A DNA stretch of 64,000 nt, from assembly GCF_002583555.1 (NCBI RefSeq), contig NZ_BEGX01000009.1:62001-126000 (forward strand), given 5' to 3'. Origin of the DNA: Pseudonocardia sp. N23. Lineage in GTDB: Bacteria > Actinomycetota > Actinomycetes > Mycobacteriales > Pseudonocardiaceae. A program made the translations under genes and the position numbers. This document shows, one piece after another, positions 20,018 to 45,979 of this stretch; the stretch's first letter is position 1, and each line of letters opens with the position of its first letter. The notes beneath the pieces were generated by a model. The model was not told the DNA's origin. It saw nothing but the letters and a program-made list of their open reading frames with translations, and did not search any database.

Positions 20018-21309
20018 CGGCGGCGGCGGACGTGCAGGGCGAACTCGCCGTCGAGGTGCTCGACGAGCGGGACGAACCGGTCGTCGGCGTCGAACCGCGC
20101 CCGGACCGCGCGCGTGTCGTGCGGGGCGTCGGCGGGCCAGCCGCGCCAGTGCACGACGACGACGTCCCCGCCGGGGTCGACGGCGTCGGCGAGCCGGTCG
20201 ATCGTGGCGTCCAGGTCGGGTGCCGAGAGGTAGTAGAGGACCTCCGACAGGACGGCCAGGTCGAGCCCGTCGGGCAGGGCCGCAGCAGTGGGCAGCGCGG
20301 CCTGCGACACGGTGACGTGGCCCGACGCCGCGACCGCCGCGCCGGCCGTCGCGACGGCGGCGGGTGCGAAGTCCGAGGCGTGGAGGGTGTCGCAGCGCCC
20401 GGCGAGCTCGCGGGTCAGCTCACCCGTCCCGCAGCCCGGCTCGGCGGCCCGCCGGTAGTGCTCGCGGGGCAGGCACGCCATCGTCACGGCGCGCTTGCGA
20501 CGCTCGTACCAGCTGGTCCGGGTCGACCAGGGGTCACCATCGGCGGTGGCGTAGAGGTCGGCGAACCGCGACGCGGGGGCACCGGTGCGACGTGGTGACC
20601 GCAGGAAGAGCTCGACGCCGGTGTCGAAGTGCGCCAGCACCTCCGGCGGGAGGACGGGTGCTCCGCCACCGGGCGGCGCGCCGACCTGCGTGGCGAACCG
20701 GGCGACGGCGTCGCGCTTGTCCTGCGTGGCCGTCGCGCCCAGGTCGTGGCGGGCCGCCCGGTCCCACGGCAGCGCGACGTCGTCGGGAGTCCCCCGGACA
20801 CACGCCCAGATCGGGAACGCCCAGCAGTGCGTGGTGAGCGGCGCCGCTGCGGTCGTGGCCGCCCCGACGGCGGCGTGGTCGGGGTGCGGGTCGTCCGACC
20901 ACGGGGCCAGGCACGTCGTCGCGCCGTCGAGGAGCGGGCGCAGCGCGTCGACGAGGGTGTCGTGGTGGGCGGCGAGGCCGGAGTCGGGCAGGCCGAGCCA
21001 GGTCACGTCGACATCGGCCAGTCCCAGCGTGCGCAGCGCGTCGCGCAGCTCCTCGCGCCGGGCCCGTCCCAGCGCGGCGCGCCCGTCGGGGTCGAGGTCG
21101 GGGTAGGCGGCCTCGCCGTCGGTGGCGACGACGAGCCGCACCTCGGCACCGGCCGAGTGGACCGCGGCGACGTACCCGCCGGCGCCGAGGGTCTCGTCGT
21201 CGGGGTGAGCGGCGACCACGACGAGGGGTCCCGCTCCGGCGACGTCCATCGGCGGCAGGTCGTGCGTGGCGAGGGCGTCGGCCCACACCTGAGGAGCCGT
21301 GAGGGTCAT
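20014..21309 (-). CDS. PIG-L deacetylase / SAM-dependent methyltransferase fusion
   Basis: 431-residue bifunctional protein. The N-terminal 230 residues are a zinc-dependent N-deacetylase of the PIG-L/MshB type: VVVAAHPDDETLGAGG (zinc ligands His, Asp, Asp) and DDPHPDHAAVG (zinc-ligand His). The C-terminal 190 residues are a class I methyltransferase: AAEPGCGTGELTREL binds SAM and LAVLSEVLYYLSAPDL is motif III-like. Such a fusion implies that one N-acetylated sugar-containing molecule is first deacetylated and then methylated. Coupled to both neighbours through 4-bp overlaps. Confidence 0.9.
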   Translation of the reverse strand: MTLTAPQVWADALATHDLPPMDVAGAGPLVVVAAHPDDETLGAGGYVAAVHSAGAEVRLVVATDGEAAYPDLDPDGRAALGRARREELRDALRTLGLADVDVTWLGLPDSGLAAHHDTLVDALRPLLDGATTCLAPWSDDPHPDHAAVGAATTAAAPLTTHCWAFPIWACVRGTPDDVALPWDRAARHDLGATATQDKRDAVARFATQVGAPPGGGAPVLPPEVLAHFDTGVELFLRSPRRTGAPASRFADLYATADGDPWSTRTSWYERRKRAVTMACLPREHYRRAAEPGCGTGELTRELAGRCDTLHASDFAPAAVATAGAAVAASGHVTVSQAALPTAAALPDGLDLAVLSEVLYYLSAPDLDATIDRLADAVDPGGDVVVVHWRGWPADAPHDTRAVRARFDADDRFVPLVEHLDGEFALHVRRRR

Positions 21310-22337
21310 CGGTCACCGTCCGTGGCGAGTACCGCGGCCCCGAGGGCGGCGAGGTCGCGCTCCCCGTGGTGCTGACGGACGTAGACACCGAGGTCGGCGA
21401 GCCGCCCGGCGAGTGGGCCGCCGCGGGTGAGGGCGGCGACCCCGGCGAGTCGCGGCGCGACGTCGAGCACCCGGCGGCAGGCGAGCTCGACGGCGGCACG
21501 GACGGTCCAGGCGGCGTCGCGGTGCGGGGCGGCGGGTGTGTCGTCGATCTCCGACGCCGTGGCCGACAGCAGCGCGTCGCACGCCGCGAGGTGCGCGTGC
21601 AGCTCCGCGAACAGGGCGAGCCGGTGCTCGTCGGGGTCGGTCTCCAGGAGGGCGGTACGCAGGTCGTCGAGCACACCCGCGGCACCTCCCAGCCAGACCG
21701 CCGCGACGCCGGCGCCGCCGTGCCAGAAACCGGGGCGCGCGGTATACCAGCGCGGGCCGCCGACCAGGGCGTCGTCGCCGACGGGCACGTCGTCGAGCTC
21801 GACGTCGACGCTGTCGCTGCGGGCCATCCCGACCGTCTCCCACGTACCGGGGACCCGGTGGACGCCGGCGCGGTCGAGCGCCACGTCGGCGACGCGGGCG
21901 CCGTCGGCCGTGAGCGCGACGACCAGCGCCCGGTCGAGTCCGTGCGCGCCGGAGCAGAACCGCACGCGACCCTGCAGCCGCCACGAACCGGGTCCGCCGG
22001 TGAGGACCGCACCGGTGCCGCCGGAGCGGGCTGCCCACACCCCGTACGTCGCTCCCGGCACGGGCTCACGACCGGCCTCGGCGAGGATCGCGACGGCATC
22101 GGCGTGTCCTTCGCCCAGTCGCGCCAGCGAGAGATCGGTCCGGCCCCACCGGGCGAGGGCGGCCCAGCGCGCCGGCGTCGCACCGCTGCCCGGCGCCGGC
22201 AGATCGGCCGTCCCCTCGGCCAGGAGGGCACGCAGCTGCGGCACGGCCGACGGCGGGTCACCGGCCGGGCCCGACGCGGCGGGCGGCGGGGTGCGGTCGA
22301 GCAGGCGTGGGCAGACCGCGGGCGGCGACACCGACAT
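21306..22337 (-). CDS. acyl-CoA dehydrogenase-like protein
   Basis: 343 residues, of the short, divergent acyl-CoA dehydrogenase branch found beside PIG-L genes. The flavin-binding middle domain reads SLARLGEGHADAVAIL and WRLQGRVRFCSGAHGLDRALV, then the helical C-terminal domain begins near RPGFWHGGAGVAAVW. The usual catalytic Glu is not obvious, so it may not be a true dehydrogenase. ATG at 22337 is chosen for the AGGAGG site 9 bases upstream; an in-frame ATG lies 7 codons earlier. First gene of the operon. Confidence 0.75.
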   Translation of the reverse strand: MSVSPPAVCPRLLDRTPPPAASGPAGDPPSAVPQLRALLAEGTADLPAPGSGATPARWAALARWGRTDLSLARLGEGHADAVAILAEAGREPVPGATYGVWAARSGGTGAVLTGGPGSWRLQGRVRFCSGAHGLDRALVVALTADGARVADVALDRAGVHRVPGTWETVGMARSDSVDVELDDVPVGDDALVGGPRWYTARPGFWHGGAGVAAVWLGGAAGVLDDLRTALLETDPDEHRLALFAELHAHLAACDALLSATASEIDDTPAAPHRDAAWTVRAAVELACRRVLDVAPRLAGVAALTRGGPLAGRLADLGVYVRQHHGERDLAALGAAVLATDGDR

Positions 22338-22492
22338 GGAGCAGGACCTCCTCAGCACCGCCTCGGGGGCGGCGCGACGACCGGGCCGAGCTTCGTGGCT
22401 GAACCCGACGGATCAAGCACAGCACTACCCCGTCCGCACCGGATCAATCGTCACCCGCGGCCGGCCGAGCGGTCATGCCCGCGGCCTGCGAG

Positions 22493-24552: not shown

Positions 24553-25707
24553 TCAGACGCCGGCGCCATGCGGGCTGAACATGGCGTCGATCGCGGGCTT
24601 GACCTCATCTGCGAACGTCCGGATGCCACGGACGGTCTCGTCGTGCTCGAGGAACCCGGCCTGTCCCATCAGCAGCAGGTGGCCGAAGCCGCCGACCCGC
24701 TCGTGGAACTTCTCGATCTGGCCGCGCACCGTCGCCGGGCTGCCGGCGAAGACGATGCCCTCGTCGATGAGGTTCTCCAGGGTCAGCGAGGAGAAGTCGT
24801 ACGCCGACTTCTGACCGGCGAGGCCGGCGGCGCGCACGAAGTAGGGCGTGTAGCCGGGCGGCTGGACGAACTCGAAGGGCACCTTGTTGGCCTTGACATA
24901 CCACATGAGCTTGCGGGCGCCCTCCAGTCCTTCCTCGTCGGTGCGCCCGGTGTAGGTGAGCGCGGCGTAGGCGAAGCGGTCGTCGCCGGGAGCGGGCCGG
25001 CCCGTGTCGGCGAGGCGGTCCCGGTAGGCCTGGAACACCTTGCGGGTGCCTTCGTAGCCGGTCAGGAAGGAGGCGACGACGAAGCCGTTGTCGGCGATGC
25101 GCGCGGCGCTGCCGGGCGTCATCGCGGTGACCCACACCGGCGGGGCGGGCTGCTGGTGGGGCCGCGGCCAGATGTTGACGTGGCGCTGCTGGAAGAACCG
25201 GCCCTCCCAGTTGAAAGGTCCGTCGTGGGTCGTCCATGCCTTCTGGATGAGCTCGATGGCCTCCCACATCCGCTCGCTCATCTGGACCGGCCGGCTGTTG
25301 ACGGCGGAGACCTCGTACGGGACCCCCCGCACGAACCCGACCTCGAGGCGGCCGTGGCTGAGCAGGTCGACGAGGGCCATCTCCTCCGCGACCCGGACCG
25401 GGTCCTTGCGGTTGGCCACCGGGTTGCCGAGCACGAGGATCCGGGCGTCGGTCGTGATGCGGCCGAGGATCCCGGCGATCACCGGCGCCGCGGGGTCCAT
25501 GCAGGTGGCCGTCGCGTGGTGCTCGTTGATCATGACATTGATGCCGCACTCGTCGGCGATCTGCCATTCGTCGAGGTAGCGGTCCCAGAGAGCCGCCGCC
25601 TTCGCCGGGTCGACCACGCCGTTGGGCAGGGTGACCCGGACGGAGTCGTAGGTCCCCTCCGGCGGGAGGTACGGGTAGGCGGTCTCGCTGAAGTGCCAGT
25701 ACTGCAT
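24553..25707 (-). CDS. LLM-class flavin-dependent oxidoreductase
   Basis: Luciferase-like monooxygenase of 384 residues, TIM-barrel, FMN- or F420-using. It starts MQYWHFSETAYPYLPP and has the active-site His pair in INEHHATATCMDPA, the DLLSHGRLEVGFVRGVPYE strand typical for the class, and VWVTAMTPGSAARIADNG. The C-terminal part ends in FHERVGGFGHLLLMGQAGF. ATG with GAGGGGAC upstream. It follows the alpha/beta hydrolase gene by 11 bases, so both should form one transcript. Probably a Baeyer-Villiger-like or oxygenolytic catabolic step; substrate unknown. Confidence 0.9.
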   Translation of the reverse strand: MQYWHFSETAYPYLPPEGTYDSVRVTLPNGVVDPAKAAALWDRYLDEWQIADECGINVMINEHHATATCMDPAAPVIAGILGRITTDARILVLGNPVANRKDPVRVAEEMALVDLLSHGRLEVGFVRGVPYEVSAVNSRPVQMSERMWEAIELIQKAWTTHDGPFNWEGRFFQQRHVNIWPRPHQQPAPPVWVTAMTPGSAARIADNGFVVASFLTGYEGTRKVFQAYRDRLADTGRPAPGDDRFAYAALTYTGRTDEEGLEGARKLMWYVKANKVPFEFVQPPGYTPYFVRAAGLAGQKSAYDFSSLTLENLIDEGIVFAGSPATVRGQIEKFHERVGGFGHLLLMGQAGFLEHDETVRGIRTFADEVKPAIDAMFSPHGAGV

Positions 25708-25718
25708 CGGCTGTCCCC

Positions 25719-26540
25719 TCAGTGTGCGCCGGCGCGGACGGCGGCGTGCTCCGCGACCAGCCTGGCGATGGTGTCGGGCCGCTCGACCTGGGCGCGGTGG
25801 CCGGCGCCGTCGACGACCTCGAACCTCGCCCCGGGGATCGCGGCGGCGTACGCGCGGCCGTAGCCGACGTCGACGATCCCGTCCTGCGCGCCCCAGGCGA
25901 CGAGGGTCGGCACGTGGACCCGCGGCAACCACCGGCGCAACCGCGGGTTGTGCAGGTAGGGCTCCCAGCCGTAGAGCGCGAGCGCCTCCTCGTTGCGGGC
26001 GATGTGCAGGACCTGCTCGCGCGGGGCACGGGTGAGGTCGCCGGGCCCGTGGCGTGCGGGGTCGGCGTGGTTGCGGGCGTCGACCTCGGTGCGGGGCATC
26101 GCGAACACGTCGGCGATGTCGCGGTCCGCGCAGCCCCCGACCTTGATCCCGACGGGATCGACCAGGACGAGCCGACCCAGCCGCGACCGGTCGCGCACCG
26201 CCATCTCCGCCGCGATCCAGCCACCGAACTGCAACCCGACGAGGACCACGTCGCGCAGGTCCTGGCGCTCCAGCCACTCGAGGTAGAGCAGGGCGAGGTC
26301 CTCGACGGAGTCGCACCAGTCGGGCCGTGGCGACAGGCCGAACCCCGGGTGGCTGGGCGCGAGGACGGTGAACCGCTCGGCCAGTGCGTCGACGAACGCG
26401 GCGTCGGCCTCGCGGCCCTCGACACCGTGCAGGAGCAGCAGGGTCGGTCCGGTCCCGGACGTGTGGACGTCGAGAACGACGTCGGCGTCGTCCACCCGCC
26501 CCACCACGGTTCCGTCGCCGGAGTCGACGAGTGTCAGCAT
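25719..26540 (-). CDS. alpha/beta-hydrolase-fold protein with Gln at the nucleophile position
   Basis: 273 residues with a complete alpha/beta hydrolase layout: TLLLLHGVEG (oxyanion region), the nucleophile elbow, WGAQDGIVD (acid) and GAGHRAQVERPD (catalytic His). The elbow reads VLVGLQFGGW: the residue that should be Ser/Asp/Cys is Gln104 (codon CAG). The protein may thus be a pseudo-enzyme, or use a cofactor-free or addition-type chemistry. ATG with GAAGGGAA upstream. It lies between the epimerase and LLM genes on the same strand. Confidence 0.88.
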   Translation of the reverse strand: MLTLVDSGDGTVVGRVDDADVVLDVHTSGTGPTLLLLHGVEGREADAAFVDALAERFTVLAPSHPGFGLSPRPDWCDSVEDLALLYLEWLERQDLRDVVLVGLQFGGWIAAEMAVRDRSRLGRLVLVDPVGIKVGGCADRDIADVFAMPRTEVDARNHADPARHGPGDLTRAPREQVLHIARNEEALALYGWEPYLHNPRLRRWLPRVHVPTLVAWGAQDGIVDVGYGRAYAAAIPGARFEVVDGAGHRAQVERPDTIARLVAEHAAVRAGAH

Positions 26541-26589
26541 GCGTGGGTTCCCTTCGTGGGGTCGTCGGGCCGGTGGACGAGCGCCGGGG

Positions 26590-27582
26590 TCAGGCGCCGT
26601 TCCACGGGGCCGACCGGGCGGGCAGGAGCTCCAGCCGGTCGAGCGTCATGAGGTAGTGCTCGACCGCCGCGGGCAGGGTGAACTGCGGTGTCCAGCCGAG
26701 GTCGGCGTGGGCTCGGGCGCTGTTCAGCGCGCCGTAGTAGCTCGCGTCCATCCGCATCGGGTCCAGGCCGGGACCGATCCGGATCGTCGCGCCCGGCACG
26801 GCGTCGCGGACGGCCTCGGCGAGGTCCTCCAGCGCGACGACGCGTCCGGTGCCGACGTTGTAGGCGTCGTGCGGGAGTCGGCCCGGCGTCAGCACCGCCG
26901 CCACGACCGCGTCGGCGACGTCGGCCACGTAGACGACGTCGTCGCGTTCGTCGCCACCCTGCTCCAGGTGGACCGGCTCACCCGCGGCGGGCAGCTCGAT
27001 CATCGAGCTGTAGACGCCGAACCCGCCGTGCCGCTGCAGCTTGCCGGGGCCGAAGATCGTCGAGAAGCGCAGCGACACGAACTCGAGGCCGCGGCTGCGT
27101 GCGTACCAGCCGCCGATCTCCTCGCACGCCAGCTTGGTGACGTCGTAGAGGCCGACGGGGCGACGGGGATGGTCCTCGGTGATCGGCGTGTAACCGGGGT
27201 GGCCGTGAGGTCCGGTCAGTGCGCCGTAGACGGCCCGGGAGCTCATGTATACGACGCGGCCGACGCCTGCCCGTGCGGCGGCCTCGCACACCGCGACCGT
27301 CCCGGACACGTTGACGCGCACCGCGGCGACGGGGTCGGCACCCGCGGCGATCACCGCGGCCGCGTGGACGATGCGCTCCGGGCGGAACCGGTCGACCTCG
27401 GCCCGGACCGCGTCGGCGTCGGCCACGTCGGCGACGGCGACCCGGATGTCGTCGGCCACGTCGGGCAGCAGGGTCCGGTCGTCGTGGGCGTCGAGCACGA
27501 GCACCTCGTGTCCGAGCTGGACGAGCCGGCGGGTGATCCAGGAGCCGTTGACCCCGAACCCGCCCGTCACCAGTGCCCGCAT
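26590..27582 (-). CDS. NAD-dependent epimerase/dehydratase
   Basis: Extended short-chain dehydrogenase of 330 residues. The NAD site is ALVTGGFGVNGSWITRRL, the catalytic Ser is in YMSSRAVYG and the active pair is YDVTK (Tyr-xxx-Lys). The C-terminal substrate domain contains YNVGTGRVVALEDL. ATG with GGGAGG 9 bases upstream. In this setting, with an LLM oxidoreductase and a hydrolase, it may act on a small catabolic substrate and not on a nucleotide sugar. First gene of the group. Confidence 0.9.
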   Translation of the reverse strand: MRALVTGGFGVNGSWITRRLVQLGHEVLVLDAHDDRTLLPDVADDIRVAVADVADADAVRAEVDRFRPERIVHAAAVIAAGADPVAAVRVNVSGTVAVCEAAARAGVGRVVYMSSRAVYGALTGPHGHPGYTPITEDHPRRPVGLYDVTKLACEEIGGWYARSRGLEFVSLRFSTIFGPGKLQRHGGFGVYSSMIELPAAGEPVHLEQGGDERDDVVYVADVADAVVAAVLTPGRLPHDAYNVGTGRVVALEDLAEAVRDAVPGATIRIGPGLDPMRMDASYYGALNSARAHADLGWTPQFTLPAAVEHYLMTLDRLELLPARSAPWNGA

Positions 27583-27983: not shown

Positions 27984-27993
27984 TCAGCGGCCC
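27966..27993. repeat. 14-bp tandem duplication across the sigma gene stop
   Basis: TCGTTCAGCGGCCC occurs twice without a gap. The second copy contains the stop codon of the sigma factor gene (27984-27986), so the duplicate past the stop is a spare copy of the gene end. Confidence 0.8.
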
Positions 27994-28970
27994 CGGGCCA
28001 CCGCGGCCTCACGGCCGGGTGGCGGGGTGTCGGCGGTGAGCCCCTCACGCAGCGTCGCCAACGTCCGCGCGAGCAGCCGCGACACGTGCATCTGGGAGAC
28101 CCCCACCTGCTCGGCGATCCGGGACTGCGACTGGTCCTCGAAGAACCGCAGCCGCAGGATGCGCCGCTCCCGCTCGGGCAGCTCGTCGATCAGCGGCCGC
28201 AGCGCGAGCTCGTACTCCACCCGCTCGTAGGCCCTCTCGACGGAGCCGATCCGCTCCTCGCCGGAACCGTCGTCGTCGACCGGGTACAGCGGCGCCGAGT
28301 GCCGGTCGGCGGTCGCGGCCAGCGCGTCGATGATCTCCTCGCGGTCGACGTCGAGGTGCGCGGCAAGCTCGCTGGGCCGGGGTGCGCGGCCGAGCTTCTG
28401 GGTCAGCGGTCCGGTCGCCTTGGCGATCGAGACGCCGAGGTCCTTGAGCCGGCGCGGGACCCGCATCGACCAGGTCCGGTCGCGGAAGTAGCGCAGGATC
28501 TCCCCGCGCACGCACGGGATGAGGTAGCCGAGGAACTCGCCCTTGGCCCGCTCCGGGTCCCAGCGGTCGATCGCGGTGATCAGGCCGACGGTGCCGGTCT
28601 GGACGAGGTCGTCGTAGCTCGCGACCCGGTACCCGTTTCCGTGCCGGCGGGCGAGGTGCTCGACGACCGGCAGGAATGCCAGCACCAGCTCCGAGCGGAT
28701 TCCGTCGCGCTCGGGATGGTCGTCGGGCAGCCCGGCGTAGCGGCGCAGCAACGGCATCCGGTCCGCGTACTCGCTCGGGCCCAGGTTCGACGACCCCTGG
28801 TCGACCGGCGCGGGTTCGGCAGGGATCGGCTCGGCGCGGGTCGGGTCCGATGGTGTCGGGTCCGATGGTGTCGGGTCCGATGGTGTCGGGTCCGATGGTG
28901 TCGGGTCCAGCGTGACGGGCTCGGCCCGGGGTGTCGGGATGTCGACCTTCGGCCTGGCAGCATTCAGCAC
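27984..28970 (-). CDS. RNA polymerase sigma factor, SigB/SigF/SigG family
   Basis: Group 3 sigma factor of 328 residues. Region 2 is seen as SYDDLVQTGTVGLITAIDRWDPERAKGEFLGYLIPCVRGEILRYFRD (split for reading: core binding, then -10 recognition), region 3 as LGRAPRPSELAAHLDVD, and region 4 as PERERRILRLRFFEDQSQSRIAEQVGVSQMHVSRLLA (helix-turn-helix for -35). The N-terminal 75 residues are a Pro-rich, disordered extension with four DPTPS repeats, unusual for the family. GTG start with GAGGAGG 5 bases upstream. The adjacent RsbW-like gene on the same strand is its likely anti-sigma factor. Confidence 0.9.
   Translation of the reverse strand: MLNAARPKVDIPTPRAEPVTLDPTPSDPTPSDPTPSDPTPSDPTRAEPIPAEPAPVDQGSSNLGPSEYADRMPLLRRYAGLPDDHPERDGIRSELVLAFLPVVEHLARRHGNGYRVASYDDLVQTGTVGLITAIDRWDPERAKGEFLGYLIPCVRGEILRYFRDRTWSMRVPRRLKDLGVSIAKATGPLTQKLGRAPRPSELAAHLDVDREEIIDALAATADRHSAPLYPVDDDGSGEERIGSVERAYERVEYELALRPLIDELPERERRILRLRFFEDQSQSRIAEQVGVSQMHVSRLLARTLATLREGLTADTPPPGREAAVARGR
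28841..28908. repeat. 15-bp tandem repeat, 4.5 copies, inside the sigma gene
   Basis: Unit TCGGGTCCGATGGTG at 28841, 28856, 28871 and 28886, plus a partial copy. It codes for DPTPS units in the N-terminal tail of the sigma factor. The unit is a multiple of three, so changes in copy number would keep the frame. Confidence 0.95.
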
Positions 28971-29151: not shown

Positions 29152-29568
29152 CTATGCGGGCGGCAACAGCTCCTCGTCGTCGGTCCACACGGTCACCCGG
29201 GTCCCCGCCGCGTCCGTCGCCACCGACATCCCCAGCGCGATCGAGCGGATCAGCGCGAGCCCGTTTCCGCGACCTCCGGGTCGGGCGCCCTGGTCCCGCC
29301 AGCGCCCGGCGTCGGCGACGACAGCCGTTGCCCGCCGTCGCCCGGGTGCGGTCGACTCCACCGCGACATCGATCGTCACCCGGCCCTCGTCGAACCCGCT
29401 GTAGGCGTGCTCGACGCTGTTGCCGAACGCCTCCACGACCGCGAACACCAGTGCGTCCGCCGCCGAGACGGGCCACTCCTGTGCCGCGAGCCACGTCTGG
29501 ACCGCGCGCCGGACGAGGCCGAGCTCGGCCGGCTGTGCATCGACCCGCAACTGCAGCTGCGTGACCAT
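29152..29568 (-). CDS. RsbW-like anti-sigma factor / serine kinase
   Basis: 138-residue GHKL ATPase. The N-box is VVEAFGNSVEHAYSGF and the G1/G2 boxes are DAGRWRDQGARPGGRGNGLALI. The product should bind and block the sigma factor coded 180 bases downstream, and phosphorylate an STAS antagonist. ATG start with GGAGGTGA only 3 bases upstream, the whole ribosome site being very strong. The antagonist is not next to it; the STAS gene at 15693 is one candidate. Confidence 0.88.
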   Translation of the reverse strand: MVTQLQLRVDAQPAELGLVRRAVQTWLAAQEWPVSAADALVFAVVEAFGNSVEHAYSGFDEGRVTIDVAVESTAPGRRRATAVVADAGRWRDQGARPGGRGNGLALIRSIALGMSVATDAAGTRVTVWTDDEELLPPA

Positions 29569-29671: not shown

Positions 29672-30172
29672 TCAGGACAGGACCGCGTCGACGGTCTTCT
29701 TGAGCGCGCTGGGCTGCTCCGGCCGGCGCGGGGCCTTCTCCCGGGCCGCGGTCATGCGTTCCCCGATCTCCTGCAGCTCCTTGCGGCCCAGCGCCTCCCG
29801 CACCTGCGGGAACCACTCCTTCTCCTCCTCCTCGATGTGGTGTGAGACGTTCTCGATCAGGACGGCGGTCTTGGCGTCGAAGCGCTCGTCGCCGGGGCGC
29901 ATGGCCGACAGCTCCGCGCACAGCACATCCGCGACGTGGTGCTCCTCGTACGACTCGAGCACGTCGTCCTCGAGCGCGGGCACGCGCTCGCGGACCTCGG
30001 GGTACATGACCTCGTTCTCGATGTAGGTGTGCACGGTGAGCGCCTCGAGGATCGACTCGACGATCCGGCCCTTGGTCTTCTCGGCGTTCTCGCCGGCGTT
30101 CTCGAAGTCGCGGAACAGTGTGCGGATGTTCTTGTGGTCGTCCTTGAGCAGCACGATCGCATCGGTGGACAT
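29672..30172 (-). CDS. hemerythrin HHE-domain protein
   Basis: 166 residues with a hemerythrin-like four-helix bundle. Di-iron ligands are visible in KDDHKNIRTLFRDFEN, VHTYIENEVMYPEV, YEEHHVADVLCAEL and VSHHIEEEEKEWFPQVRE (His and Glu pattern H-HxxxE-HH-HxxxE). Such proteins bind oxygen or NO, or sense redox stress. A Lys-rich tail follows (SALKKTVDAVLS). ATG 30172 is used since the protein motif begins there; an upstream ATG at 30208 has no better ribosome site. It is consistent with the stress genes next to it. Confidence 0.9.
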   Translation of the reverse strand: MSTDAIVLLKDDHKNIRTLFRDFENAGENAEKTKGRIVESILEALTVHTYIENEVMYPEVRERVPALEDDVLESYEEHHVADVLCAELSAMRPGDERFDAKTAVLIENVSHHIEEEEKEWFPQVREALGRKELQEIGERMTAAREKAPRRPEQPSALKKTVDAVLS

Positions 30173-30408
30173 GGTGGTGGGCTCCAGCCTGGGTGGTGGT
30201 GACAACATGTGGGCCGGTCCGGGACGGACGGACCCATCGGGGTGCGTAGCCCGTTGCGGCCGGGTCCAACCCCCGACGCCCGCCCCGATGTGCGCCGCGT
30301 CGACGGAACCGGACCCGGCGGTTTCCGCCGGGCCGGCCTGGGTATCGCCTGCGCCGTGACACCGACCCCCACCACTGCCCGGCGGCGCAGCGACACGGCC
30401 GGGACGCC

Positions 30409-31521
30409 ATGAGCAACCCCGTCGTCGCCCAGACGGCGCGCCACGATGTCGTCACCGTCGCGTCCGTGCCGGAGGGTCACGTCTACGTCCGGCACCTGTC
30501 CGACCCGGTGGATCGCGACCGGGTGCGCCGGCTCCCCGATCCGCGTCCCTGTCCCGCGCCGAGCGACCAGTCCGTCTGGTGGCCCCCGGTGATGCTCGAT
30601 CCCGAATGGGTCGCCGCGAACCACCGCTGCTTCGACGTGTACCACCTCCACTTCGGATTCGACGCGCAACCGGTCGAGGAACTCGACGCGCTGGTCCGCA
30701 CCTTGCAGGCGACCGGGACACCTCTGGTGCAGACCGTCCACGATCTCCGCAACCCGCACCACGCCCGTCGCGACGAGCACGACCGCCATCTCGACGTCCT
30801 GATCCCTGCCGCCGACGAGATCGTCACGCTGACCCACGGTGCGGCCGACGAGATCGCCCGCCGCTGGGGTCGCGACGCGCTCGTACTGCCGCACCCGCAC
30901 GTGGTGGACCTCCCGTCGATCGACACACCTCGGGCCCCACACGACGGCGTCGTCGTCGGGATCACCCTCAAGAGCCTGCGCGCCAACATGGATCCGCTCC
31001 CCGTGGTGGAGACGGCAGCGGTAGCGGTCGCGGGGCTGGACGACGTGGTCCTGCGCGTCGACGTCCACACCGACGTCATGGACCCCGCGGGTGAGCACCA
31101 CGACCCCGCGCTCGCGAACCGGCTGCGGGAGGCCGAGCGGCGCGGACTCCTGACGCTCTCGGTGCACGGCTTCCTCTCCGACGCCGAGCTGTGGACCCAC
31201 CTGCGCGACGAGATCGACGTATCGGTGCTGCCGTACCGCTTCGGAACCCATTCCGGCTGGTTGGAGGCCTGCCACGACCTGGGGACGGCCGTCGTCGCGC
31301 CGGACTGCGGCTTCTACCGCGAGCAGCGCCCGTGCCTGACCTACCGCAACAACGAGCAGGACGGCCTCGACCCGGGCTCGCTGGCCGACGCGATCGGGGC
31401 GGCAGCCCGCACCGCGCCGCCGGCCCGTCCTGGGCGGGCCCGGCGCACCACCGAGCGGACCGCGCTCGCGCGCGCCCACGACCGCGTCTACGCCCGCGCG
31501 CTCGAACGGGCACGCGGATGA
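30409..31521 (+). CDS. glycosyltransferase, GT-B-like
   Basis: 370 residues, first of four coupled transferase genes. Rossmann-like halves are recognised from YHLHFGFDAQPVEEL, GTPLVQTVHDLRNPHH, ADEIVTLTHGAADEIARRWG and VVVGITLKSLRANMDPLP, and a C-terminal donor-side segment VSVLPYRFGTHSGWLEACHDLGTAVVAPD, which resembles the E-x7-E region of GT4 enzymes in position but lacks both Glu. The ribosome site is weak. Its stop overlaps the next start (ATGA). Donor sugar unknown; intracellular, no membrane helix. Confidence 0.75.
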   Translation: MSNPVVAQTARHDVVTVASVPEGHVYVRHLSDPVDRDRVRRLPDPRPCPAPSDQSVWWPPVMLDPEWVAANHRCFDVYHLHFGFDAQPVEELDALVRTLQATGTPLVQTVHDLRNPHHARRDEHDRHLDVLIPAADEIVTLTHGAADEIARRWGRDALVLPHPHVVDLPSIDTPRAPHDGVVVGITLKSLRANMDPLPVVETAAVAVAGLDDVVLRVDVHTDVMDPAGEHHDPALANRLREAERRGLLTLSVHGFLSDAELWTHLRDEIDVSVLPYRFGTHSGWLEACHDLGTAVVAPDCGFYREQRPCLTYRNNEQDGLDPGSLADAIGAAARTAPPARPGRARRTTERTALARAHDRVYARALERARG

Positions 31522-32579
31522 CCCCGTTACGGATCGCGCTCATCGCCTCGTCGAACCATCCGCTCGCCGAGCCCTTCGCCGGTGGTCTGGAGGCGCACAC
31601 CGCGCTGCTGGCCCGGGGGCTGACGAGCCGCGGGCACCACGTCACGGTGTTCGCCGCGCCCGGCTCGGACCCGGTGCCCGGCGCCCGCGTCGAGGAGATG
31701 CGGGCGCTCTCGTTCAGTGCTGCCGCCCGCACCGACGTCTCGATGCCCGCGGCCCGGTTCATGGCCGAGCACCACGCCTACCTGGACCTCATGCTGCGCC
31801 TGGCCCACGGGCACGAGTTCGACGTCGTGCACAACAACAGCCTCCACCACCTCCCGGTGGTGATGGCGCGGACGCTCGCCGTCCCACTGGTCACGACCCT
31901 GCACACCCCACCGACACCATGGCTCGAGTCCGCGATCATCGCCGCGGCCGGCCGGCACGGGACGCTGACGGCCGTCAGTGGCCACACCGCCGGGGCGTGG
32001 CGCCACGTCGCAGACGGGATCACCGTGATCCACAACGGCGTCGACGTCACGACGCGCACGCCCGGCCCGGGTGGCGGACCGCTCGTGTGGGCGGGCCGGA
32101 TGGTCCCCGAGAAGGGCCCCCACCTGGCGATCCTCGCCGCCCGCACGGCGGGCCGGGCGCTGTTGCTCGCGGGTCCGGTCAGCGACCGCACGTACTTCGA
32201 CACGACGGTCGCCCCGCTGATCGGCGGGGACGTCCGCCACGTGGGTCACCTGTCCCACTCCGAGCTCACCCGGCTGGTGGCAGAGGCCTCGGCGATGCTC
32301 GTGACGCCGTCGTGGGAGGAGCCGTACGGGCTGGTCGTCGCGGAGGCGCTGGCGTGCGGCACGCCCGTCGCCGGGTTCGCCGTGGGCGCGCTGCCGGAGA
32401 TCGTCGACGACTCGTGCGCACGGCTCGTGCCCGCGGGCGACGTCGCTGCCCTGGCCGCGGTCGTGCCGACCGTGGAGGCGCTGCCGCGCACCGCCGCCCG
32501 GCGACGGGCCGAGCGGTGCTGGAGCCACCGTCGCATGGTCGACGACTACGTGGCGCTCTACTCCCGGGTCGCGGCGTGA
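31518..32579 (+). CDS. glycosyltransferase family 4
   Basis: 353-residue GT-B enzyme. Acceptor side: IALIASSNHPLAEPFAGGLEAHTALLARGL (the Gly-Gly-x-Glu loop). Donor side: GITVIHNGVDV, LVWAGRMVPEKGPHLAI, and the nucleotide-sugar motif PSWEEPYGLVVAEALACGTPVAGF with both conserved Glu. Retaining mechanism by family. ATG overlaps the stop of the first transferase and its own stop overlaps the third gene (GTGA). Confidence 0.93.
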   Translation: MTPLRIALIASSNHPLAEPFAGGLEAHTALLARGLTSRGHHVTVFAAPGSDPVPGARVEEMRALSFSAAARTDVSMPAARFMAEHHAYLDLMLRLAHGHEFDVVHNNSLHHLPVVMARTLAVPLVTTLHTPPTPWLESAIIAAAGRHGTLTAVSGHTAGAWRHVADGITVIHNGVDVTTRTPGPGGGPLVWAGRMVPEKGPHLAILAARTAGRALLLAGPVSDRTYFDTTVAPLIGGDVRHVGHLSHSELTRLVAEASAMLVTPSWEEPYGLVVAEALACGTPVAGFAVGALPEIVDDSCARLVPAGDVAALAAVVPTVEALPRTAARRRAERCWSHRRMVDDYVALYSRVAA

Positions 32580-33619
32580 TCGGCTACTACGTGCACCACC
32601 AGGGCCGGGGCCACCTCACCCGGGCGCTCGGGATCCTCGGGACCCACGGCGGCCCCGCCACCGTGCTGACCAGCCTGCCCCGGCCTGCCGACGCGCCGGC
32701 GACCCGGCTCGGCTGGGTGGCGCTCCCCCGCGACGACGAGGGTCTGCCGCCGCAGGACCCGACCGCGGGCGGGGCGTTGCACTGGGTGCCCCGCCACGAC
32801 CCGGGGCTGCGCGGGCGGATGGCCACGATCGCGGCGTGGGTCGAACGAGCCGCGCCGCGCCTGGTCGTCGTCGACGTGTCGGTCGAGGTGGCGCTGCTGT
32901 GCCGGCTCATGGGTGTGCCGGTGCTGGTCGTCGCGATGCCCGGTGACCGCACCGACCGGGCCCACCGGCTCGGCTACGACGTCGCCGACGCGCTGCTCGC
33001 GTGCTGGCCGCGCGAGGTTCTCGACCCGCCGTGGCCCTCGGCGTGGACGGCGAAGGCACGGTTCGTCGGCGCCCTGTCCCGCTACGACGACCGGATCGGC
33101 AGCGGGGACCCGGCCGTCGGCGCGGACCAGGCCGGGGCGGGTCGACCCCGGCGACGCAGCGTCGTCGTGCTGCTCGGGGCCGGCGGACGCGACGTCGCCG
33201 ACGCCGAACTGGCCGCGGCCGCGCGCGCCACACCGGGCTGGGACTGGACGGTCCTCGGCGGCAGCGACGTGTGGGTCGCCGACCCGTGGACGCTGCTGCG
33301 TGCCGCCGACGTCGTCGTCACCCACGCCGGCCAGAACGCGCTCGCCGAGGTCGCCGCGGCCCGCAGGCCCGCGATCGTCGTCCCCCAGCGCCGACCTCAC
33401 GACGAACAGTTCGCTGCGGCTGCGGCGCTCGCGCGGGCCGGGCTCGCCACGGTCTGTCCACACTGGCCGGACCCGGCCGCCTGGCCGTCGCTGCTCGACG
33501 ACGCCACCGCCGACGACGGCAGCCGCTGGCAGCTCTGGTGCCCCGGTGGTGCGACCGCCGCTGCGGCGGACCTGATCCACGAGCTGACCGGGGACGAGTC
33601 GCCGTGCACGTCACGCTGA
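32576..33619 (+). CDS. MurG-like glycosyltransferase (GT28 type)
   Basis: 347 residues. The N-terminus VIGYYVHHQGRGHLTRALGI resembles the G-x-GH-x-x-R/P start of GT28/UDP-glycosyltransferases, and the C-terminal donor site is RAADVVVTHAGQNALAEVAAARRPAIVVPQ followed by PHDEQFAAAAALA. It is an inverting enzyme by family, using a UDP- or similar activated sugar. GTG start in a GTGA overlap. The fourth gene starts within its last 16 bases. Confidence 0.87.
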   Translation: MIGYYVHHQGRGHLTRALGILGTHGGPATVLTSLPRPADAPATRLGWVALPRDDEGLPPQDPTAGGALHWVPRHDPGLRGRMATIAAWVERAAPRLVVVDVSVEVALLCRLMGVPVLVVAMPGDRTDRAHRLGYDVADALLACWPREVLDPPWPSAWTAKARFVGALSRYDDRIGSGDPAVGADQAGAGRPRRRSVVVLLGAGGRDVADAELAAAARATPGWDWTVLGGSDVWVADPWTLLRAADVVVTHAGQNALAEVAAARRPAIVVPQRRPHDEQFAAAAALARAGLATVCPHWPDPAAWPSLLDDATADDGSRWQLWCPGGATAAAADLIHELTGDESPCTSR

Positions 33620-34455
33620 TCACCGTGGTCCACGGGCGCCACGAGCACCTGCGTCGTCACCAGGAGGGCCTCGCCGATGTCGACGAACCACCCGCCACCC
33701 GCATCGTCGTCGCCGTCGACGATCCGGCCGTCGCGCCGATCGTCGGCGACGGGCCCGACGTCTGCACCGTGCCGGTGGCCTCCTCCGTCGCGGCCGGGGG
33801 CAGCGGCGACGGGCTGCCGATCGCGCACGCCCGCAACGTCGGCGCGGACACCGCGATCGTCCGTGGCGCCGATCTGCTCGTCTTCCTCGATGTCGACTGC
33901 ATCCCCGGCCCCGGGCTGTTCCGGCGCTACCGCGAGGCCGCGTCCGGTGCGCGGGACCGCCTGCTCTGCGGCCCCGTCGCCTACCTGCCGCCGCGACCCT
34001 CCGGCGGCTACCGGGCCGATGCGCTCACGACGAGCGCGCAACCGCATCCCGCCCGGCCTGCCCCCGCCGACGGCACCCACCTCGACTCGGACGGCCACGA
34101 CCTGTTCTGGTCGTTGTCGTTCGCGCTGACCACACCCCTGTGGTCGGTGCTCGGCGGGTTCCACGAGGGCTACCGGGGCTACGGCGCCGAGGACACCGAC
34201 TTCGGGCAGCAGGCTCGCGCGGCCGGCGTCGGGCTGCGCTGGGTCGGCGGCGCCACGGCCTATCACCAACACCACCCGGTGAGCGACCCACCGGTCGAGC
34301 ACCTCGACGACATCCTGCGCAACGGCGCGTTGTTCCGCCGGCGGTGGGGCCGGTGGCCGATGACGGGCTGGCTGGAGGCGTTCGCGGCGGCCGGGCTGGT
34401 CAGCCACGACCCGGTGACGGACCGGTGGGCGCGGACCGGCGTCGCGAGCGGATGA
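33604..34455 (+). CDS. glycosyltransferase, GT2/GT7-like with galactosyltransferase-type C-terminus
   Basis: 283 residues. GT-A fold: HVTLITVVHGRHEHLRRHQEGL at the start, ADLLVFLDVDCIPGPGLFRRY with the metal-binding DVD, and a C-terminal GGFHEGYRGYGAEDTDFGQQARAAGV, which is the GGNxE...GWGxEDxD motif of GT7-like transferases. GTG at 33604 overlaps the previous gene by 16 bases; no ATG is available. Last of the four-transferase operon. No polymerase, flippase or sugar-nucleotide gene accompanies it. Confidence 0.87.
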   Translation: MHVTLITVVHGRHEHLRRHQEGLADVDEPPATRIVVAVDDPAVAPIVGDGPDVCTVPVASSVAAGGSGDGLPIAHARNVGADTAIVRGADLLVFLDVDCIPGPGLFRRYREAASGARDRLLCGPVAYLPPRPSGGYRADALTTSAQPHPARPAPADGTHLDSDGHDLFWSLSFALTTPLWSVLGGFHEGYRGYGAEDTDFGQQARAAGVGLRWVGGATAYHQHHPVSDPPVEHLDDILRNGALFRRRWGRWPMTGWLEAFAAAGLVSHDPVTDRWARTGVASG

Positions 34456-34505: not shown

Positions 34506-35213
34506 TCACGTCGGGGGCAGGCTGCCGGTGTCGAGCAGGTCCTTCGCGACGTCGGCGACCTTGCGCCTGCGGTTGCGCGACGCGCGGCGCAACAGGTCGA
34601 ACGCCGTCACCGCGTCGACCCGCCTGGCCGCCATCAGGTACCCGACGGCGCGTTCGATGAGGACGCGGTAGTCCAACGCGTACTGGAGCTGGCGGGCGAG
34701 CTCGTCGGAGTGCCGCGCCACCAGCAGCGACCGCAGCGTCGTCTCCAGCACGTCGGAGTAGCGGGTGAGGGCGGACCGTTCGGAGTCGTCCCAGCGATGC
34801 GGGCGGTCGAGGTAGACGTCGAGGGAGCCGACCGTGACGCCGCCGAGCCGGACCGGCACGCCCAGCACCGCGTGCACCCCGTGGTCGACGAGCACACCGC
34901 GGCTCTCGGGCCACCGGTCCTCGCAGGTGAGGTCGTCGGTGCCGACCGGTTCACCGTTGACGAACGTGTCGATGCACGGGCCCTGCCCCGTCTCGGTCTG
35001 GACCTTCTCCAGGACGCGGCCCGGGCCGTCGGTCGCCGCGGCGTAGCGAAGAGAGTCCTGTTCGTCGGCGACCATCAGGCCGGCGCCGGTGACGGCGAAC
35101 AGGTCGACGCAGGCGGTGACGACGGCGTCGAGCGCGCCCGAGAGGTCCGCGTCGTCGGCCGGCTGGAGGCCACGCAGGCTCGCAGCGAGCTGGTCGACGT
35201 CGATGTTCGGCAT
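34506..35213 (-). CDS. GAF-ANTAR regulator
   Basis: 235 residues. GAF sensor about 25-160 (AVTGAGLMVADEQDSLRYAAATD, TGQGPCIDTFVNGEPV) and an ANTAR RNA-binding domain about 170-228 (QLQYALDYRVLIERAVGYLMAARRVDAVTAFDLLRRASRNRRRKVADVA, with the conserved A..GxLM and AF..LR residues). ANTAR proteins stop premature termination by binding paired hexaloop hairpins. ATG with AGGAGACC 8 bases upstream. Its partner at 35468 is transcribed away from it. Confidence 0.92.
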   Translation of the reverse strand: MPNIDVDQLAASLRGLQPADDADLSGALDAVVTACVDLFAVTGAGLMVADEQDSLRYAAATDGPGRVLEKVQTETGQGPCIDTFVNGEPVGTDDLTCEDRWPESRGVLVDHGVHAVLGVPVRLGGVTVGSLDVYLDRPHRWDDSERSALTRYSDVLETTLRSLLVARHSDELARQLQYALDYRVLIERAVGYLMAARRVDAVTAFDLLRRASRNRRRKVADVAKDLLDTGSLPPT

Positions 35214-38092: not shown

Positions 38093-40510
38093 TCAGTGCG
38101 CCCTGGCCGGAGTCGCCGCGTCCGGCACCGACGGCGTCGGGTGGTCGCGTTCCAGCGAGGCCCCCTCGACGTCGACGTTCGGCAGGAGCCGGTCGAGCCA
38201 CCTCGGCAGCCACCAGGCGGCGTCGCCTGCCAGGTGCATCAGCGCGGGGATGACGAGCATCCGGACGACGAAGGCGTCGAACAGCACGCCGAAGGCCAGC
38301 CCGAAGCCCATCGGCCGGATCATCGCGAGGTGGGAGAACACGAACCCGCCGAAGACCGAGAACATGATGATCGCGGCGGCGGTGACGACGGCACGGCCTG
38401 CGTGCAGGCCCTCGGTGACGGCACGCCGCGCCGGTGAGCCGTGCACGAACGCCTCGCGCATGCCCGAGACCAGGAACAGCTGGTAGTCCATCGCCAGCCC
38501 GAACAGGACACCGACCAGCAGCGTCGGCAGGAAGTTCAGCACCGGCCCCGGGTCGTGGACGCCGAACACCGGACCGAGCCAGCCCCACTGGTAGATCGCG
38601 ACGACGGCACCCATCGCCGCGAAGTAGGACAGGACGAAACCGGCGGTGGCGGTGACCGGCACCAGGATCGACCGGAACACGACGATCATGACCAGCAACG
38701 ACAGCCCGACGACGACCGCCAGGTAGATCGGCAGGGCCGCGGCCAGTTTGGCGGAGATGTCGATGTTGCCCGACGCCGATCCCGCAACGCCCAGCGGCGT
38801 GTTCGGCGCGGACGGGGTGGTCATCGACCGCAGCTCGTCGACGAGCTGCTCGGTCGCCTCGCTGGTCGGCCCGTCGGTGGACAGCACCTGGAACAACGCG
38901 AACGACCCGTTCGGCGCGACGGCGACCGGGGCGACGGCCGTGACGTGACCGGCGCCGCCGATCTCCTCGGCGATGCGTGCCTGTGCCGCGGTGCGCGCCT
39001 GCTCGTCGAGGTCCGGGGGCAGGTCGGCGACGACGACGAGCGGGCCGTTGGCGCCCGGCCCGAACTTCTCCGCGACCGTCGCGTAGGCCTGGTACTGCGT
39101 GGACTCCCGCGGTTCCGAGGAGCCGTCCGGCAGGCCGAGGCGCATCGACAGCGCGGGGACGGCGATCACCACGAGCAGCGCGATCCCACCGACGGCGCGC
39201 AGTACGGCCGTCGCCGTCGACATCGGGGAGCGTTGTGCGGTCGTCGGGGTGGCAGGCTGCGCCCGGGCCCTGCGCGACAACAGCCGCGGCCCGATCAGCG
39301 AGAGCAGCGCCGGGGTGAGCGTCACCGCGACCAGCACGGCGACGGCGACGCAGACCGCGCCGACGATGCCCATCAGCCCGAGGAACGGGATGCCGGTGAT
39401 GGTGAGCGCCACGAGCGCGATCACGACGGTGAACCCTGCGAACACGACGGCGTTGCCGGACGTGCCGGTGGCCAGCGCGATCGACTCGCGCAGGGGGACT
39501 CCCGCGCGCAGCTGCCTGCGGTGGCGGTTCACGACGAACAGGGCGTAGTCGATACCGACGGCCAACCCCAGCATGAGCCCCAGGATCGGGGTCACCGATG
39601 TCATCTCGACGATCCCGGAGAACGCCATCGCCCCGGCGACGCCGACCCCGACGCCGACGAGCGCGGTGAGGATGGGCAGCCCGGCCGCGACGAGCGTGCC
39701 GAGCATGACCAGCAGCACGATCGCGGCGATCGCCACGCCGACGACCTCCGCCGGGCCGGCGATGCCGTCGATGCTCTGGGTGATCTCGGAGGAGAAGTCG
39801 ACGTCGACGCCCGGGATCGCGGCGTCGCGGACGGCGGCGACGACGGCGTCCTTGGTCTCCGTCGGGATCGCGGTCTGCGACGCCCCGAACGCGACGGTGG
39901 CGACGGCCGCGGAGCCGTCCTGGGAGACCGTGCGGATGCCGGCCGCCAGGGCCGCGAGGGACTGCCCCGCGGTGAGCTGCGCGGCGCCGGCCTGCAGGCC
40001 CGCGCGGGCCTGGTCGAGCTGTTGCTGCTGCGCGGCGAGTGCCGCGGCGGGGGCTCCGGCGGCACGGGCGGCGTCGAGCTGGGCCTGTCCCTGGTCGAGC
40101 TGGGCCGTCGCCCGGTCGAGCTGCGCGCGGCCGCCGGCGAGCTGCTGTTCCTGGGCTGACCTGGTGGCGGCGACCGCGAACGGGTCGACGACCTGGGTGA
40201 CGCCCTCGATCCCGCCGACGCGCTGCAGCGCCGCCGACACCGCGGCGCGTTGCTCCGCGGTGAAGGGCGTTCCGTCCGCGGTGCGCAGGACGACCAGGCC
40301 CGTGCCGCCGCCCGCGCCGGGCAGCTCGGCCTGGAGCCGGTCGGACACCTGTTCGGTCGGGGTGCCGGGGATCGAGGTCGCTCCCGTCAGCGAGACCCCG
40401 GTGACGAGGACGGCGACGACCGCCGCGACCAGCGCGACGGCCCAGGCGGTCACGACCCGCCACGGGCGGCGGGCCGCGAAGTGGCCGAGGCGGTACAGCA
40501 GTTCTGCCAT
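38093..40510 (-). CDS. MMPL/RND-family transporter
   Basis: 805-residue RND-type inner-membrane transporter, proton-driven export of lipids or drugs. Two repeats, each with a periplasmic loop after helix 1 and 6 membrane helices. The signature acidic residues in the helix-4 region are GLAVGIDYALFVVNRHR in the first half and GLAMDYQLFLVSGMRE in the second. The first loop contains an Ala/Gln-rich coiled-coil segment (about residues 113-180). It follows the TetR gene by 27 bases on the same strand and is the likely target of that regulator. Confidence 0.94.
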   Translation of the reverse strand: MAELLYRLGHFAARRPWRVVTAWAVALVAAVVAVLVTGVSLTGATSIPGTPTEQVSDRLQAELPGAGGGTGLVVLRTADGTPFTAEQRAAVSAALQRVGGIEGVTQVVDPFAVAATRSAQEQQLAGGRAQLDRATAQLDQGQAQLDAARAAGAPAAALAAQQQQLDQARAGLQAGAAQLTAGQSLAALAAGIRTVSQDGSAAVATVAFGASQTAIPTETKDAVVAAVRDAAIPGVDVDFSSEITQSIDGIAGPAEVVGVAIAAIVLLVMLGTLVAAGLPILTALVGVGVGVAGAMAFSGIVEMTSVTPILGLMLGLAVGIDYALFVVNRHRRQLRAGVPLRESIALATGTSGNAVVFAGFTVVIALVALTITGIPFLGLMGIVGAVCVAVAVLVAVTLTPALLSLIGPRLLSRRARAQPATPTTAQRSPMSTATAVLRAVGGIALLVVIAVPALSMRLGLPDGSSEPRESTQYQAYATVAEKFGPGANGPLVVVADLPPDLDEQARTAAQARIAEEIGGAGHVTAVAPVAVAPNGSFALFQVLSTDGPTSEATEQLVDELRSMTTPSAPNTPLGVAGSASGNIDISAKLAAALPIYLAVVVGLSLLVMIVVFRSILVPVTATAGFVLSYFAAMGAVVAIYQWGWLGPVFGVHDPGPVLNFLPTLLVGVLFGLAMDYQLFLVSGMREAFVHGSPARRAVTEGLHAGRAVVTAAAIIMFSVFGGFVFSHLAMIRPMGFGLAFGVLFDAFVVRMLVIPALMHLAGDAAWWLPRWLDRLLPNVDVEGASLERDHPTPSVPDAATPARAH

Positions 40511-45230: not shown

Positions 45231-45247
45231 CCGGCGGGGACGTCATC

Positions 45248-45257
45248 GATCGGTAAG
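45248..45257. promoter_or_regulatory. candidate response-regulator site before the GT2 operon
   Basis: GATCGGTAAG, identical to an arm of the inverted repeat at 49106-49141, ends 47 bases before the GT2 start. ATCGATC occurs at 45245 and 45266 (21 bases apart), a spacing that would suit two helical turns. Confidence 0.45.
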
Positions 45258-45303
45258 CACACGACATCGATCCGCTCGGCCCTCCGGGATCGAAGATCGG
45301 TGT

Positions 45304-45951: not shown

Positions 45952-45979
45952 GGGCGGCGTCGGCGGAAGGACAGCAGCG

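Follow-up and report, generated by a model that had tools for sequence, protein, structure and literature searches.

What do four different glycosyltransferases make together when their genes overlap one another in a single operon? The question is raised by a stretch of 64,000 nucleotides from Pseudonocardia sp. N23 (contig NZ_BEGX01000009.1, positions 62,001 to 126,000; hereafter the window), in which genes A, B, C and D occupy positions 30409-34455 of the + strand with successive overlaps of 4, 4 and 16 bases. These overlaps, of 4 to 16 bases, had been correctly described in an original prediction made from the sequence alone, which further supposed that the four enzymes work without partners, that their product may be a short oligosaccharide attached to a soluble acceptor, and that a second operon 8 kb away, encoding a PIG-L deacetylase, could be part of the same product.

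We report a computational analysis in which A-D are found to be a conserved cassette and in which its link with the PIG-L operon is supported. In our estimate the chances are about even that A-D are the core of a cytosolic pathway in which a short oligosaccharide of fixed length grows on a small soluble acceptor and which is switched on by a general-stress sigma factor of the SigF/SigB type, the PIG-L set finishing the product. Co-occurrence, gene order and a promoter-like site are observed, while the regulation, the substrates and products and their place in the cell are inferred. The stress context, the site of SigF/SigB type ahead of A, an optional arm of genes in relatives that includes WcbI, and a link to sucrose all go beyond the original prediction. 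No paper on this cassette was found among the titles and abstract openings listed by searches of open-access literature.

The conserved cassette

Gene A, to which no class had previously been given, has no match in Pfam or NCBIfam, and a profile search against PDB sequences returned an unrelated chain as its best match (E 0.02) and a glycosyltransferase at 0.08. Its AlphaFold model, built from 40 sequences (39 of the 56 listed A proteins and the window's own), has a mean pLDDT of 91.4, and as modelled the protein is a GT-B fold of the glycosyltransferase family 4 (GT4) type. It matches BshA (3mbo, Z 21.4) and MshA (3c4q, Z 20.9), each with 313 aligned positions at a root-mean-square deviation of 4.0, and its nearest solved structures, among them BshA, MshA, GlgM, sucrose-phosphate synthase (SPS), SenB and the tetrahydrobiopterin glucosyltransferase BGluT, are GT4-type GT-B enzymes tied within about one unit of Z. 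The classes proposed earlier for the other three genes have held. B matches Glyco_transf_4 (PF13439, 70.6 bits against a cut-off of 28.5; 2e-19) and Glycos_transf_1 (PF00534, 59.6 bits, cut-off 26.4). C carries the GT28-type domain Glyco_tran_28_C (PF04101, 35.7 bits, cut-off 22; 1e-8), though it is not a MurG equivalog (TIGR01133, 32.5 bits against a cut-off of 250.25). D matches Glyco_transf_7C (PF02709, 24.7 bits, cut-off 23; 2e-5), and the D96-V97-D98 of its DxD motif is invariant in 17 aligned rows.

Searches at the level of the order were made in a sample of 200 genomes from a larger group. Gene A is present in 52 of these and gene B (E up to 1e-60) in 33, all of them among the 52. Forty regions around A, taken from 39 of the A-positive genomes, hold all four genes in 29 cases, three genes in one and A alone in ten. 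Among 296 genomes sampled at class level 43 have A, and among 246 at phylum level eight have D (E up to 1e-50); three of these eight lie outside the class and also carry A, B and C in the D-positive region. A further set of 80 named actinobacterial loci, selected by D alone as the best 80 of at least 567, spans Pseudonocardia, Mycobacterium, Rhodococcus, Streptomyces, Nocardioides, Agreia, Solirubrobacter, Conexibacter and others; with matches under 120 bits disregarded, C is present in all 80, B in 78 and A in 69. With a crude gene caller, ABCD is contiguous in 53 of these loci and adjacent pairs show the exact 4-base overlap in 34/59 (A-B), 52/62 (B-C) and 42/65 (C-D) cases. The 4-base overlap is also the median spacing of the cassette genes in the named loci and, because it recurs across relatives, the packing reflects more than chance.

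Two further arrangements of A-like genes were seen. The genomes outside the class that hold A, B, C and D (L235-L237) carry a second A-like gene, and nine genomes from a single family (L062-L070) have an A-related gene that is unaccompanied by B, C and D and has recurrent neighbours of its own.

Linkage to the PIG-L operon

The PIG-L operon lies at 19235-22358 on the - strand and comprises three genes with 4-base overlaps, encoding an acyl-CoA-dehydrogenase-like (ACAD-like) protein, a PIG-L deacetylase fused to a NodS-like methyltransferase, and a GT2 glycosyltransferase. The PIG-L/methyltransferase protein (E below 1e-20) occurs in 28 of 33 B-positive genomes of the order sample against 41 of 167 B-negative ones (Fisher p 9e-11), and the association with the cassette persists when genomes are permuted within genera (p 0.0006-0.001, treating both ways the genome G066, whose B match is weaker than 1e-60). 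The triplet itself is kept, with all three genes in 13/13 PIG-L regions and in 7/7 shorter regions, three of these from the same genomes. The two sets are also physically joined in several lineages. A Knoellia locus is a single run of ACAD, PIG-L/methyltransferase, GT2, B, C and D, and in a Marihabitans locus the same run is preceded by genes for alcohol dehydrogenase and for an SDR protein; A is absent from both.

The linkage is clearest on alphaproteobacterial plasmids. Relatives of D were found in 27 plasmid records, of which 17 were read, and the ACAD gene in 24, of which three were read. Among the 17 loci C is present in all and B in 16, and six records from Novosphingobium and Sphingobium carry B, GT2, C, ACAD, PIG-L, methyltransferase and D in one run; PIG-L is annotated in five of the six, the last (L279) being unannotated and matched in the methyltransferase part alone. 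Catalase adjoins the interleaved run in 5/6. Two of the 17 records are actinobacterial and carry ABCD (Rhodococcus) and B, C, D (Arthrobacter). The co-occurrence across genomes that the original prediction had named as its test is thus strong, the lack of it that was to count as a refutation did not appear, and a link of the PIG-L operon with the cassette is supported by the counts, by the within-genus association (p about 0.001) and by the physical linkage. One variant was noted on Sphingobium xenophagum p1 (L255:8601-9649), where the C gene lies in two pieces downstream of an IS1380 transposase and its neighbours are whole.

Several observations pull the other way. In actinobacteria the linkage is usually loose, since a PIG-L gene lies within the stretch in only 6 of 120 loci (10 of the 120 being A-only), and the 41 B-negative genomes hold the PIG-L/methyltransferase protein with no cassette. 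Plasmids of Acinetobacter, Pandoraea and Kitasatospora carry the PIG-L set with its GT2 and without B-D, while eight of nine loci in which the cassette is linked to SPS lack the PIG-L set. A is missing from 11 of the 80 named loci, and in the 15 alphaproteobacterial loci there is no region for which A is the best match. The loose linkage and the separate occurrence of the PIG-L set make it conceivable, if unlikely, that this set and A-D make two different molecules which share a stress response and often a genome. The interleaved run of Novosphingobium and Sphingobium, the contiguous run of Knoellia and Marihabitans and the within-genus association all argue against such a separation, and the PIG-L set may simply decorate several backbones. 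We retain the reading of a single pathway in considering what the operon might contribute.

The deacetylase scores above the threshold of its family (PF02585, 97.4 bits, cut-off 28.2). The methyltransferase domain matches NodS (PF05401, 37.2 bits, cut-off 24, 4e-9; NCBIfam NodS, 1.6e-13), though below the NCBIfam equivalog level (50.8 bits against a cut-off of 300), and a separate Novosphingobium methyltransferase protein matches NodS at 7e-22. In the making of rhizobial Nod factors N-acetylglucosamine is deacetylated, by NodB, and NodS then N-methylates the freed amine; here PIG-L stands in place of NodB and no acyltransferase is seen among the operon genes. Mycothiol and bacillithiol synthesis offers a second parallel, combining MshA or BshA with the PIG-L enzymes MshB or BshB: gene A has the GT4-type fold in its model, and the deacetylase scores weakly with the BshB and MshB models. 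In contrast to those pathways there are at least four glycosyltransferases here, together with the NodS-like methyltransferase and the ACAD-like protein, and no ligase like theirs is among the identified cassette neighbours. These family assignments suggest that the operon would supply an amino-sugar cap.

The ACAD-like protein of the window has itself no Pfam match. A profile search places it nearest to 5gj7 and 5z8t (2e-13; 5z8t is titled flavin-containing monooxygenase), then to ColB1, TdsC and DszC, and the six best Foldseek rows for its AlphaFold model are the amino-sugar nitrososynthases KijD3, DnmZ and the enzyme of Micromonospora carbonacea. KijD3 is an amino-sugar N-oxygenase, the substrates of nitrososynthases are deoxythymidine diphosphate (dTDP) sugars, and dTDP ligands are present in the matched structures. 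Against this likeness stand an identity of 21-22%, a model of pLDDT 74.6 built from 4 sequences, and the closeness of DszC, TdsC and acyl-CoA dehydrogenases, which follow within a factor of about 10 in E. The model is thus no more than suggestive of a sugar N-oxygenase, an idea that preceded its making.

Table 1. Positions within the window of the cassette, the PIG-L operon, promoter-like sites and nearby genes
Feature	Position	Strand	Remarks
Gene A	30409-31521	+	GT-B glycosyltransferase, predicted GT4-like fold, without Pfam family
Gene B	31518-32579	+	GT4; relative of the glucosylsucrose synthase TeGSS and of BGluT
Gene C	32576-33619	+	MurG/YjiC-like, GT28-type C-terminal domain, GTG start
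Gene D	33604-34455	+	GT2/GT7C-type, motifs DVD and GYG[GA]EDTD, GTG start
ACAD-like gene	21306-22358	-	First of PIG-L operon; start uncertain; Marihabitans relative matches Acyl-CoA_dh_1
PIG-L deacetylase fused to NodS-like S-adenosylmethionine (SAM) methyltransferase	20014-21309	-	Pfam
GT2 of PIG-L operon	19235-20017	-	Pfam
SigF/SigB-type promoter-like site, GGTTT-N15-GGGTAT	30320-30345	+	89 bases upstream of the start codon of A, counted between first bases
Weak SigF/SigB-like site, GATT-N14-GGGTAG	22426-22449	-	91 bases upstream of the start taken for the PIG-L operon; could be a chance match
Sigma factor, regions 2, 3 and 4	27984-28757	-	Same type as recurs in relatives; possible regulator
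HATPase_c_2, anti-sigma kinase-like	29152-29568	-	Possible regulator
Hemerythrin-like gene beside A	29672-30172	-	Pfam; context only
GAF-ANTAR regulator after D	34506-35213	-	Pfam; context only

Gene B, the acceptor and the fate of the product

The nearest solved relatives of B are TeGSS (5e-37, B residues 4-352) and BGluT (1.6e-28), which a profile search finds at 1e-59 and 3e-51, respectively; the alignment with TeGSS is over the full length, and the likeness to BGluT covers most of B. According to PMC9909042, TeGSS transfers glucose to sucrose, giving glucosylsucrose, and a salt-stressed cyanobacterium contains a product of this kind. The residues of TeGSS that contact uridine diphosphate, Arg179 and Lys184, are kept in B as Arg194 and Lys199 and are invariant in 17 rows. 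However, the sucrose-site residues Trp10 and Tyr18 are replaced in the window by Asn13 and Ala21 and are absent from every B row inspected, the SPS-linked ones included. Since the former pair is kept and the latter lost, we regard B as a relative of glucosylsucrose synthase and not as an established one. The window's own genome has, moreover, no S6PP match, so that sucrose is unsupported as the acceptor there. Nor could sucrose be adopted for actinobacteria at large, as S6PP (E below 1e-30) occurs in two of the 200 genomes, both cassette-positive, which are too few to use.

Matters differ on the plasmids, where a fused sucrose-phosphate synthase/phosphatase (SPS/SPP) lies beside C or D in 9/17 loci read. 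Of the nine proteins, the three examined all match PF05116, two of them also matching TIGR02472 (1e-94 and 4e-92). Jiella carries both forms of the locus, SPS/SPP-linked and PIG-L-linked. In the alphaproteobacterial relatives that carry SPS/SPP the acceptor is probably sucrose. The arrangement recalls the cyanobacterial pair of SPS (tll1590) and TeGSS (tll1591), in which SPS likewise adjoins a GT4 of B's type and an oligosaccharide built on sucrose accumulates under salt stress (PMC9909042); the cassette differs in having at least two further glycosyltransferases and the PIG-L set, as well as in the sucrose-site residues of B and the missing S6PP match noted above. Four of the alphaproteobacterial plasmids (L267, L278, L283, L284) have a gene for a sulfotransferase close to the SPS/SPP-C-D run, whose product may therefore be sulfated.

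The resemblance of B to BGluT over most of its length, taken with the presence of BshA, MshA, GlgM, SPS, SenB and BGluT among the tied neighbours of the A model and with the catalase and iron redox genes around the cassette, could instead mean that a small redox metabolite, such as a pterin or a thiol, is glycosylated in place of a sugar, much as BGluT and BshA do. We think this very unlikely, as in some of the alphaproteobacteria the linked SPS/SPP speaks for sucrose, and the GT4 fold matches are general, not specific. The earlier proposal of a soluble acceptor and a short chain stands in part: the nearest solved relatives of B do use soluble acceptors, while the acceptor, the product and its solubility are predictions.

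Whether the product might leave the cell was considered from the neighbouring genes. Pfam was run on 30 of the 59 called genes of the window, all within 19235-50386, and found neither a flippase nor a polymerase among them; one MMPL membrane protein is encoded at 38093-40510. Single-linkage grouping of neighbour families in the 80 named loci gives SDR proteins in 25 loci, GAF-ANTAR regulators and zinc alcohol dehydrogenases in 17 each, sigma factors of the SigB/SigF type in 14, one ABC ATPase family in 11, a redox enzyme containing iron in 9, catalase in 8 and an amino acid permease in 7, besides two recurrent families without a name, one of 153 residues (8 loci) and one of 68 residues. None of the identified families found in at least 6 of the 80 is that of a flippase, a polymerase or a lipid carrier. 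This part of the original prediction is upheld in the scanned genes and recurrent neighbours; its companion statement that no nucleotide-sugar gene is present fails, since epimerase genes of that type lie at 26590-27582 and 44181-45230, and the phrase "without partners" was too strong in view of these genes and of the partners seen in relatives. The epimerase genes are not supported as partners of the cassette: as queries they gave few and weak matches, with a stronger match in a control stretch. Each belongs to a setting of its own, the second to an operon at 44181-47289 (NAD-dependent epimerase, GT2, DUF2064 and SAM methyltransferase) that may be another sugar pathway, and the first, GalE-like, to a consecutive series at 24553-27582 on the - strand with a luciferase-like monooxygenase and an alpha/beta hydrolase.

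Relatives also show an optional arm, seen in the 80 named loci, of WcbI, a GT4-like gene and an MftF-like GT2/7C gene, often divergent from A. In the order sample WcbI occurs in 22 genomes and the arm GT2/7C, at a threshold of E up to 1e-40, in 26; with G066 counted in, every one of these genomes has the cassette. In a genome of the same genus as the window (G188) both adjoin the cassette. Neither gene was found in the window's genome, and the arm is not taken to be part of the window copy. As WcbI is named for a polysaccharide biosynthesis enzyme, and as C resembles MurG, which uses a lipid acceptor, the cassette might be thought to make a surface glycan or glycolipid whose carrier, flippase and polymerase are encoded elsewhere. 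This we hold to be distinctly unlikely. It is not our first choice because the identified recurrent families, although they include the ABC ATPase and the permease, hold no flippase or polymerase; in addition, the nearest solved relatives of B act on soluble acceptors, the SPS/SPP product is a soluble sugar, and the window's genome does without WcbI. The variable neighbourhoods and the occurrence of the cassette on plasmids could also be read as the mark of tailoring enzymes for a secondary metabolite, which strikes us as highly improbable given that related sets occur in two phyla and that no polyketide or peptide synthase family is among the identified recurrent neighbours.

Stress context and the proposed pathway

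The site before A (Table 1) agrees with the consensus in 11/11 letters. Its core, GTTT-N13..17-GGGTA at 30321-30344, is the sole match in the window on both strands, where 0.06 are expected and 6/100 shuffles give at least one. The published Mycobacterium smegmatis SigF consensus reads GTTT-N(14-19)-GGGTA (PMC4694148), and SigB-type promoters of Streptomyces coelicolor are described as similar to it (PMC8346170). A loose form of the site precedes leading cassette genes in 10/52 cases against 11/334 for other genes (p 1e-4) and, in a larger set, in 11/106 against 52/977 (p 0.04). The pattern itself was picked, on the basis of a known consensus, after the upstream letters had been seen, and loose matches often arise by chance. 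A strong promoter shared by the PIG-L operon was looked for, and just a weak site was found there.

Around A-D the window holds a sigma factor, an anti-sigma-type kinase, a hemerythrin and two ANTAR genes. Genes for sigma factors, ANTAR proteins, catalase, alcohol dehydrogenase or related proteins lie in 7/30 order loci (the ten A-only regions excluded) and 30/80 named loci, against 1/40 control stretches, which come from order genomes only (p 0.017 and 1e-5). Anti-sigma, hemerythrin and LigD are not conserved neighbours, being found in 0, 0 and 1 of the 80 named loci and in none of the 30 order loci. One stretch of an Acinetobacter ursingii plasmid (L260:3461-16817) combines genes for catalase and for a redox enzyme containing iron with the ACAD/PIG-L/methyltransferase/GT2 set and genes of trehalose synthesis, the PIG-L set sitting between the catalase and the trehalose genes. 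Taken together, the site and these neighbours point to regulation by general stress. The case for it is weakened on several counts: the stricter forms of the site are uneven in other loci, the middle (GTTT) form being present in 4/52 (p 0.05) and 5/106 (p 0.2) and the strict form in 0/52 and 4/106 (p 0.04); the queries for stress genes were partly drawn from the loci tested; SDR and ANTAR are large families; and catalase is found in none of the 30 order loci.

On balance we propose the following scheme. A stress sigma factor would transcribe A-D from the site at 30320-30345, and the two GT-B enzymes A and B would place the first sugars on the acceptor. The MurG-like C and the GT2/GT7C enzyme D, with its DVD motif, may then add one sugar each, so that the length of the oligosaccharide would be set by the number of enzymes. 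The PIG-L operon is predicted from its families to supply or finish an amino sugar, in that its GT2 would add an N-acetylhexosamine, the PIG-L domain would strip the acetyl group and the NodS-like domain would methylate the freed amine, while the protein of acyl-CoA-dehydrogenase fold could oxidise the nitrogen or a ring carbon. Because the recurrent neighbours identified in the loci examined include no gene for a flippase, a polymerase or a lipid carrier, the product would be expected to stay inside the cell, where it may serve as a protectant. As a kind, it most likely stands beside the known compatible-solute oligosaccharides. A broader proposal, which we put forward tentatively as possible but doubtful, is that it represents a widespread class of stress metabolite in actinobacteria and alphaproteobacteria, namely a non-reducing oligosaccharide of fixed length made by soluble enzymes only, bearing an N-methylated or N-oxidised amino-sugar cap and encoded also on plasmids beside catalase and DNA-repair genes.

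If the proposed pathway is right, a new small sugar would be made under stress by bacteria of soil and plants in many genera, including Streptomyces, Rhodococcus, Mycobacterium and Novosphingobium. It would add a compound beside trehalose and glucosylsucrose, and a function would be found for genes annotated just as "galactosyltransferase-related protein" or "PIG-L family deacetylase". Furthermore, if the ACAD-like protein were an amino-sugar N-oxygenase, such chemistry would occur outside antibiotic pathways.

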